Assembly (NCBI GenBank): GCA_021811565.1
Contig: JAJZOL010000058.1
Coordinates: 1 to 48,531, forward strand
From: a bacterium
Lineage (GTDB): Bacteria; Armatimonadota; Chthonomonadetes; Chthonomonadales; CAJBBX01
DNA: 48,531 bases
Direction: 5' to 3'
Positions 21,863-30,033 of this stretch are shown here, one piece after another (position 1 is the stretch's first letter; each line of letters starts with the position of its first letter). The notes beneath the pieces are model-generated. The model was not told the origin of the DNA. It saw nothing but the letters and a program-made list of their open reading frames with translations, and searched no databases. The translations under genes were made by a program, and so were the position numbers.

Positions 21863-21864
21863 AG

Positions 21865-21950
21865 AGGTAATTGCAAAATTCAGAAAATGAGGCTATTATC
21901 GCTCATTTCACGCTCGGCTAAATACCTTCAAACGAATTTTGCAATTACCT
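21865..21950. repeat. perfect 17-bp inverted repeat element after the rhamnosidase gene
   Basis: AGGTAATTGCAAAATTC (21865-21881) is inverted perfectly as GAATTTTGCAATTACCT (21934-21950). A second stem inside is formed by AAATGAG near 21885 and CTCATTT near 21902. It starts 2 bases after the stop codon. It lacks a U-run. Related arms occur at 1729-1816 and 3906-3921. It could be a miniature palindromic element that doubles as a transcript end. Confidence 0.65.
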
Positions 21951-22034
21951 GTAAATAATACATGAGGATGCGGTTGGGAAATTGGCGTCATTCCAGTGAT
22001 GCGAAAACTGGTTTCACATAAAAGGAGATGAAAG

Positions 22035-27859: not shown

Positions 27860-27883
27860 GCGCTTGTGCGCTTGGAGTTACGC

Positions 27884-28507
27884 ATGGACAAAGAAAATTC
27901 CAATTCCATAACCCCGGAGACCGATGAGCGAACCCATTGCAAGAAGGAAGGTCGCTTTTCATCGAATGCAGTTGCCGAGCTCGAGGAGATTATCACCCAT
28001 TATCCGAACAAAAAGGCGGCAATGCTTCCAGCGTTGTGGATCGCTCAGAGAGAGTATGGAGGATACATCACCCCCGAGGCGATAAGGGAGGTTGCTCGTC
28101 TTCTGGGAAGGTCTAAGGCGGAAGTGGAAGGGGTTGCGACTTTCTATTCCATGTATAATTTCAAGCCCAAAGGGAAGCATCATCTGGAAGTCTGCACATG
28201 TCTCACCTGTGGATGCGTAGGGGCTTATGGCGTTGTGCATAAATTGGAGGAGATGCTGGGAATCCATCTTGGGGAGACCACGCCCGATGGGGAGTTCACG
28301 CTTTCCGAAGTGGAGTGCTTGGATTGGTGCGAAGCGGGGACGGTAATTCAGGTGGGCAATAAATATTTCGGGCATGTAACGAAGGATAACGTCGAGATGG
28401 TTCTGGAACAGTTGCGCGAATCGGATGACCATACTCCAACCTCTCTTGCGGATGATATTGTAAAAATACTGTTGCCCGAGGGCGAACCTAAATCCAAGGT
28501 CGAATGA
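27884..28507 (+). CDS. nuoE: NADH-quinone oxidoreductase subunit E
   Basis: 24-kDa subunit of the NADH dehydrogenase module, with a thioredoxin-like fold holding [2Fe-2S] cluster N1a. I start at ATG27884 (GGAG 7 nt upstream), 207 residues. The first 30 residues are hydrophilic. The helical bundle follows (AMLPALWIAQREYGGYITPE, VEGVATFYSMYNFKP). Expected ligands are Cys104 and Cys109, and Cys145 and Cys149 (CLDWC). Two further Cys, 106 and 111, crowd the first loop (CTCLTCGC), which is unusual. A 121-bp inverted-repeat insertion follows the gene. Confidence 0.95.
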   Translation: MDKENSNSITPETDERTHCKKEGRFSSNAVAELEEIITHYPNKKAAMLPALWIAQREYGGYITPEAIREVARLLGRSKAEVEGVATFYSMYNFKPKGKHHLEVCTCLTCGCVGAYGVVHKLEEMLGIHLGETTPDGEFTLSEVECLDWCEAGTVIQVGNKYFGHVTKDNVEMVLEQLRESDDHTPTSLADDIVKILLPEGEPKSKVE

Positions 28508-28551
28508 TTCATGTTCGGGGGTCTCTTTCAATCACCTTTTGCGAGCATGTA

Positions 28552-28672
28552 TGAGTGTGTTGCACAAATGTATTTGAACCTCAAACTGATACAATATATG
28601 CATATTCAAGCCATTATATATCCAATATATTGTATGCGCACTGATTCTGATTATATTTATGCAACACACTCG
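28552..28672. mobile_element. 121-bp MITE-like palindromic element flanked by TA, between nuoE and nuoF
   Basis: The ends are inverted copies: TGAGTGTGTTGCACAAAT at 28552-28569 against the complement of the 3' end at 28655-28672, 16 of 18 matching. TA dinucleotides flank both sides (28550-28551 and 28673-28674). Inside, ATACAATATAT (28589-28599) pairs perfectly with ATATATTGTAT (28625-28635). It is more AT-rich than the flanking genes and has no ORF. TA duplication is the habit of IS630/Tc1-mariner-type elements, so a non-autonomous derivative is plausible. No transposase is in the window. Confidence 0.6.
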
Positions 28673-28701
28673 TATTTTAACGAAAATCGGAATTTGAAAA
28701 T

Positions 28702-30033
28702 ATGGCGGAATTAAAACTGCTTTTAAAATATCGTGATGTTCCCGGTATCGAGAATATTGATGTCTGGGAAAGTTGTGGCGGCTATGAGGGCTTGAAAAAA
28801 GCCCTGACCATGGAGCGTTCGGCGGTTATAGATGAGATGAAGATATCCGCAGTGCGCGGACGCGGCGGTGCGGGATTTCCCGCTTGGATAAAGTGGAGCG
28901 GAGTGTTAAAACATACCGACGCACCGCATTATCTGATATGCAACGGAGACGAAGGGGAGCCTGGAACCTTCAAGGACCGCGAACTTATGTTAAAGCTGGC
29001 GCATCAGTTAGTCGAAGGGATGATCATCGCCGCCTACGCCACAAACACCGACAAAGGTTATGTCTATATTCGCGGTGAATTTGTCGAACCCGCCAAATCC
29101 GTCCGAAAAGCGATTGATCAGGCGTACGCCAAGGGGTATTTGGGTCGTGGCATCCTCGGCAGGGAGGATTTTAATTTCGATCTCTACATCCACATGGGGG
29201 CGGGCAGCTATGAGTGTGGAGAGGAGACCGCTTTGATGAGCAGCTTGATGGGGGAGAGAGGCCAGCCTAGATTAAAATTCCCTCACGGAGCGCTTCCTGT
29301 CGACGCTGGCGTATGGGAATCTCCGACACTAATCAATAACGTGGAAACCTATTCTTGTGCGCCTCACATCCTGCGCAACGGAGGGGCTTGGTACGCCTCG
29401 ATGGGGACGGAGAGAAGCAAAGGCACCAAGATCATCTCCGTTAGCGGGCATGTGAAAAAGCCGGGAAACTACGAAATCGAGCTTGGAACCCCCCTCATGG
29501 AGATGTTGGACCTCGCAGGCGGGGTGATTGGCGGGAAGCTGAAAGCGATTATCCCAGGTGGATCTTCCGTGCCTATCCTCCCAGCTGAAAAATGCGTTGG
29601 AGTCAATATGGATTACGAATCCTGTCAGGCGGCGGGCACGATGCTAGGCTCGGGTGGGTTCATGGTGTTCAATGAAAAAACCGATATCGTGATTCTCATG
29701 CGCAGAACCGCTGAATTTTACGCTCATGAATCCTGCGGCAAGTGCACCCCATGTAGGGAAGGCACCCGGTGGATGTTCAAGATATTGGATCGCATCGTTA
29801 GCGGGGCGGGGCAACCGAGTGATATCGATTTGTTGCTGAATGTTTGCGATCAGATTGACGGCCGTTCCTATTGCCCGTTAGGAGATGCCGCCGCATGGCC
29901 GATCAGGGCGGGAATTAAGAATTTCCGCGAAGAGTTCGAGTATTGGATCACGCATAAGAAATCACCGATTGGTGATGATTGCGTTCCACCTGTGCCTTAC
30001 CGAATCAACCCGGCTTTGATACCTTTATCATAA
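28702..30033 (+). CDS. nuoF: NADH-quinone oxidoreductase subunit F
   Basis: 51-kDa NADH-binding subunit holding FMN and [4Fe-4S] cluster N3. 443 residues from ATG28702; the SD is weak (CGGA about 14 nt upstream), so translation or transcript arrangement may be affected by the insertion just before it. Landmarks are RGRGGAGFPAW (residues 52-62), CNGDEGEPGTFKDR from residue 80 (FMN/NADH), GAGSYECGEETALMSSLMG, and cluster ligands Cys345, 348, 351 (SCGKCTPCREG) and Cys391 (SYCPLGD). Complete. Confidence 0.97.
   Translation: MAELKLLLKYRDVPGIENIDVWESCGGYEGLKKALTMERSAVIDEMKISAVRGRGGAGFPAWIKWSGVLKHTDAPHYLICNGDEGEPGTFKDRELMLKLAHQLVEGMIIAAYATNTDKGYVYIRGEFVEPAKSVRKAIDQAYAKGYLGRGILGREDFNFDLYIHMGAGSYECGEETALMSSLMGERGQPRLKFPHGALPVDAGVWESPTLINNVETYSCAPHILRNGGAWYASMGTERSKGTKIISVSGHVKKPGNYEIELGTPLMEMLDLAGGVIGGKLKAIIPGGSSVPILPAEKCVGVNMDYESCQAAGTMLGSGGFMVFNEKTDIVILMRRTAEFYAHESCGKCTPCREGTRWMFKILDRIVSGAGQPSDIDLLLNVCDQIDGRSYCPLGDAAAWPIRAGIKNFREEFEYWITHKKSPIGDDCVPPVPYRINPALIPLS

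Follow-up and report, generated by a model that had tools for sequence, protein, structure and literature searches.

Within the stretch of bacterial DNA analysed here (the window; 48,531 nt, contig C180 of a 4.0-Mb genome in 248 contigs), a short palindromic element lies between nuoE and nuoF. Its position raises two questions: is it a mobile element or a regulatory part of the nuo operon, and, if mobile, what moved it? A preliminary description of the locus had read it as a MITE, and its edges can be set by comparison with G001, a sister species and the closest relative compared (a member of the same genus, with 99% identity in NuoF and ∼92% in the DNA around the element).

At its nuoE–nuoF junction, G001 has a single GTAT and an exact empty site. 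The junction there reads GCGAGCATGTATTTTAAC, whereas the window reads GCGAGCAT-GTAT-[119 bp]-GTAT-TTTAAC, the single G001 GTAT overlapping the last bases shown. The element between nuoE and nuoF is 119 bp long (Table 1). On this comparison, which had been suggested as a check and confirmed an insertion, the MITE entered GTAT in the 71-bp nuoE–nuoF gap after the split from G001, with duplication of 4 bp, and the gap is now 194 bp.

The preliminary description had placed a palindromic element of 121 bp at 28552–28672. The element is there, but each edge had been set one base too far out, because one base of the duplicated GTAT was taken in on either side. Its terminal inverted repeats, counted as 16 of 18, are also present, and with the corrected edges 18 of the 20 outer bases pair (all except positions 13 and 18). 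The TA reported on both sides is literally present at the nuo copy, as the middle of GTAT, but does not characterise the family. The perfect inner 11-bp stem was described correctly, as was an AT-rich, ORF-free composition: the family consensus is ∼34% GC versus 50% for the window, and the element contains no gene, nuoE and nuoF both lying outside it. As RNA (+ strand) it is predicted to fold at -35.6 kcal/mol (z = -5.6), a value reached by none of 200 shuffles.

Table 1. Coordinates of the element, the neighbouring nuo genes (window positions) and the termini of the proposed mobilising insertion sequence (contig positions)
Feature	Position	Strand	Remarks
nuoE, 24-kDa 2Fe-2S subunit	27866..28507	+	PF01257, 1.2e-46; intact, ends 41 bp before left duplication
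Left target site duplication GTAT	28549..28552	.	4 bp
MITE	28553..28671	.	at least 23 copies in genome; ends from G001 empty site
Left terminal inverted repeat GAGTGTGTTGCACAAATGTA	28553..28572	+	pairs 18/20 with right end
Inner stem, left arm ATACAATATAT	28589..28599	+	perfect 11-bp
Inner stem, right arm ATATATTGTAT	28625..28635	+	perfect 11-bp
Right terminal inverted repeat, - strand reading GAGTGTGTTGCATAAATATA	28652..28671	-	
Right target site duplication GTAT	28672..28675	.	4 bp
nuoF, 51-kDa subunit	28702..30033	+	PF01512, PF10589; intact, starts 30 bp after element
IS right-end termini	C145:1-126, C95:4318-4415, C5:1-97		all at contig ends
IS left-end termini	C144:3283-3408, C235:1-126		all at contig ends

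A dispersed family with 4-bp target duplications

A search of the genome itself returned 23 essentially full-length copies, 92–100% identical to the nuo copy. All are 119 bp and share the ends GAGTGTGTTGCACAAATGTA / GAGTGTGTTGCATAAATATA, with single-base end differences in a few. A perfect 4-bp target duplication flanks 19 of the 23 (chance P ∼2e-42), and in three further copies 3 of the 4 duplicated bases match. The duplicated sequence varies, with ATAT, TTAT, GAGA, TTCA, AGAG, ATCA, CATG, CTAA, CTCA, AAAG and others found at the other copies; one (L012) has an 8-bp flanking repeat, GTATGTTG, in place of 4 bp. Copies differ pairwise by 5.7% on average. Variation is ∼4-fold lower in the outer 16 bp at either end than in the interior, which fits a requirement for the ends in transposition. 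Most copies sit outside long open frames, like ordinary MITEs. Copy L019 breaks a long open frame in a membrane-protein-like gene, 606 codons once the flanks are joined.

These features agree with the published definition of prokaryotic MITEs (PMC10969869). The element is non-coding and well below the ∼500-bp limit, its terminal inverted repeats (18/20 bp) fall within the ∼4–30 bp range, it is flanked by direct repeats that were checked against empty sites, and it is dispersed, multicopy and AT-rich with a stem-loop transcript. The preliminary description had advised looking for other genomic copies and empty sites; besides the 23 copies, G001 has empty sites spanning the junction for ten MITE copies other than that in nuo. 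The number of copies, their exact ends, the duplications and the empty sites strongly support the MITE reading, and we regard it as practically certain that 28553–28671 is a MITE with a 4-bp target duplication.

Full scoring of 40 relatives, ranging from the same genus to the same phylum, detected no copy, nor did a shallower survey of 290 genomes from the phylum (the top two candidates scored in each) or searches among plasmids and phages. The family spread in this lineage after the split from G001 and, as far as these searches reach, appears so far only in this species. The locus provides a recently active MITE family with no match in the collections searched, a probable mobilising insertion sequence (IS) and exact before/after sites, and the host lineage is one represented mostly by draft genomes. 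It offers a clear case of a common type of mobile element that can aid annotation, and it leaves the general picture unchanged.

Candidate mobilising elements

The 119-bp MITE is non-autonomous, comprising no more than the ends recognised by a transposase (GAGTGTGTTGCAYAAAT) and an AT-rich palindromic interior. Besides the MITE copies, a search of the genome with its end sequence recovered one terminus, GAGTGTGTTGCGCAATTGC..., in identical form on C5, C95 and C145, and a related terminus, GAGCCTGTTGCATAAAT...ATGTCCTACAATTTCATTGA, likewise without differences on C144 and C235. All five lie at contig ends, where a collapsed repeat would be expected. In contig C4 of G001, the sequences flanking the C144 and C145 termini meet with a 4-bp overlap (...GACCATAGGATACC...), giving the duplication ATAG. 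C144 carries the left end (GAGCCTGTTGCATAAAT) and C145 the right end (GAGTGTGTTGCGCAATTG) of a single insertion sequence, at which contigs break, presumably because the element is multicopy. One IS of this type has entered a prepilin-like gene at its start (KGFTLIELLVVIAIIAILAA; C95:4318, the end of L152) and another just 5′ of a gene starting like enolase (C5:97, the start of L151).

The MITE ends match those of the C144/C145 IS at 13–14 of the first 16 bases and diverge after that. Nothing obvious is shared past ∼17 bp, so the MITE is not a simple internal deletion of this IS. A match at the ends followed by divergence accords with published comparisons of MITEs and their partners, in which the likeness between MITE and parent IS was confined to the end repeats, generally < 20 nt (PMC3852290). 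The C144/C145 IS combines the properties looked for in the source of an IS-derived MITE, namely matching ends, equal duplication length and residence in the same genome. We consider it probable that this IS or close kin mobilised the MITE, the transposase of the multicopy IS most likely acting in trans.

The reading frame of the C144/C145 IS begins MSYNFI; only these six codons were assembled, the transposase core being absent from the assembly. In G001, a truncated/degenerate element matching the NCBIfam IS1182 model starts MSRNFIPYEQ, 80 bp after the end GAGCCTGTCCGAAAA. The similarity of MSYNFI to this start, together with the shape of the ends, is why we call the C144/C145 IS IS1182-like. 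Our confidence in the call is only moderate because of the missing core, and membership of the IS1182 family is somewhat less secure than the role of this IS as mobiliser, though still likely. A full IS1182 match was not found in this draft assembly, and searches of the order, the phylum (best two candidates per genome) and virus contigs gave no match to the C144/C145 IS outside this genome. A precedent is provided by the MITEs of ISMac2, an IS1182-family element of Methanosarcina acetivorans (160 bp, 14 copies, 4-bp duplications; PMC3852290). By description these resemble the present family in being short, multicopy and without a gene and in their 4-bp duplications, but they differ in host domain and in having 26-bp terminal inverted repeats (PMC3852290).

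A different IS group that also makes 4-bp duplications could instead have moved the MITE, the likeness to the C144/C145 ends being superficial. The genome does hold other DDE transposase genes (C119, C214, C211), and the C211 element has ends (AGGTAATTGCAAAATT) shared with a second MITE family that likewise has 4-bp duplications. The C211 ends, however, share with those of the focal MITE no more than a short core resembling TTGCA, compared with 13–14 of 16 bases and equal duplication length for the C144/C145 IS, and we judge this alternative unlikely, if still a serious one. The DDE_Tnp_1 transposases on C119 and C214, which we take to be IS1634-like, were rejected as MITE parents, as neither is surrounded by GAGTGTGTTGC-like ends; a MITE copy on C119 is merely near the transposase there. 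Another candidate IS end, GAGTGTATTGCATGA (4 matches in the genome), proved to be a conserved coding motif of prepilin-like genes, and a scan of species genomes for GAGTGTGTTGCAYAAA gave, among the matches listed, none in which an element had both paired ends and a duplication.

MITEs of the IS630/Tc1-mariner group are small palindromic elements with terminal inverted repeats, and the preliminary description had suggested a transposase of this group, which would insert at TA and duplicate it. The TA either side of the nuo copy fits, but it belongs to the GTAT duplication established by the G001 empty site, the duplications of this family are 4 bp and variable, many (GAGA, TTCA, AGAG, ATCA, CATG, CTCA, AAAG) without TA, and a multicopy IS with matching ends and the same duplication length is present in the genome; the attribution is unsupported and its probability negligible. 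The case shows that TA next to a single copy is not proof that TA was duplicated.

Consequences for the nuo operon

The insertion lies between nuoE and nuoF, as had been reported, and leaves both genes intact. The 30-bp nuoF leader, including a weak SD, is also intact, with one base different from G001. The weak SD noted in the preliminary description is real but is not a result of the insertion, because it is the same in G001, which lacks the element. An effect on nuo expression through a promoter had also been raised, but no promoter was predicted within the 119 bp, the sole promoter-like match lying outside the element on the opposite strand. Terminator prediction likewise returned nothing in the element. 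The nuo transcript would gain a long hairpin of ∼-36 kcal/mol between the two intact cistrons, and the predicted fold persists in the mRNA context; of the features of the insertion, only this strong hairpin might matter for nuo expression, and nothing observed here supports such an effect.

The insertion could have been co-opted, altering the nuoE:nuoF ratio either because the mRNA is cut at the hairpin or because the hairpin shields the mRNA upstream of it. The persistence of the fold in mRNA is compatible with this, and so is a precedent in Neisseria, where, in the account given by one review, Correia element hairpins can alter mRNA decay, processing or expression, and an RNase cleaves a Correia MITE in the mtrCDE mRNA (PMC10969869). 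As portrayed there, Correia elements are, like the focal MITE, small palindromic MITEs in transcribed intergenic regions, but differ in the RNase, IHF or promoter functions ascribed to them (PMC10969869). Against co-option, the sequence carries no evidence of selection, and most copies lie, like ordinary MITEs, away from long open frames. We consider co-option improbable, as we do any functional effect of the insertion on nuo, and it is a shade more doubtful that the hairpin serves this species as a functional mRNA processing or stabilising element setting the NuoE to NuoF ratio.

A role as a conserved regulatory RNA or attenuator in nuo is scarcely credible for the element: a stable hairpin does stand between two stoichiometric subunit genes, but the G001 junction lacks it, 22 other copies lie elsewhere in the genome, neither a terminator-like site nor a promoter-like match on the nuo strand accompanies it, and its Rfam matches are only to plant miRNA models, far below gathering scores, as any long palindrome can produce. 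The preliminary description had named conservation of one lone copy at this position in distant relatives as the mark of a regulatory RNA, and this is not what the comparisons returned.

By default, the insertion in nuo is probably tolerated rather than selected. The Chunjie MITE of Geobacter uraniireducens (178–235 bp; Chen et al. 2008, cited in PMC10969869) is similar by the review's description: it too was recently active, with one copy inside an operon whose structure is not disturbed, but it is longer than the 119 bp found here (PMC10969869). As a whole, the account of a recent MITE insertion at nuoE–nuoF, most likely mobilised in trans by the C144/C145 IS, itself probably of the IS1182 family, and probably tolerated, is in our view very likely correct.

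A second MITE family and nested insertions

The window also contains a copy of the second MITE family (21864–21951), with ends [G/C]AGGTAATTGCAAAATTC, a length of ∼88–89 bp and TAAA on both sides. There are many copies of this family in G001 and several in the present genome, and G001 has no copy at the 21864–21951 site. The C211 element (L174:39-1434; G000 C211) is a 1.4-kb IS-like element in which a DUF772/DDE_Tnp_1 transposase is interrupted by TAG. Its ends are those of the second family, of which, judged by these ends, it is likely the parent or kin. Four focal MITE copies (L009, L010, L011 and L015) lie in or directly beside second-family copies, forming nested insertions.
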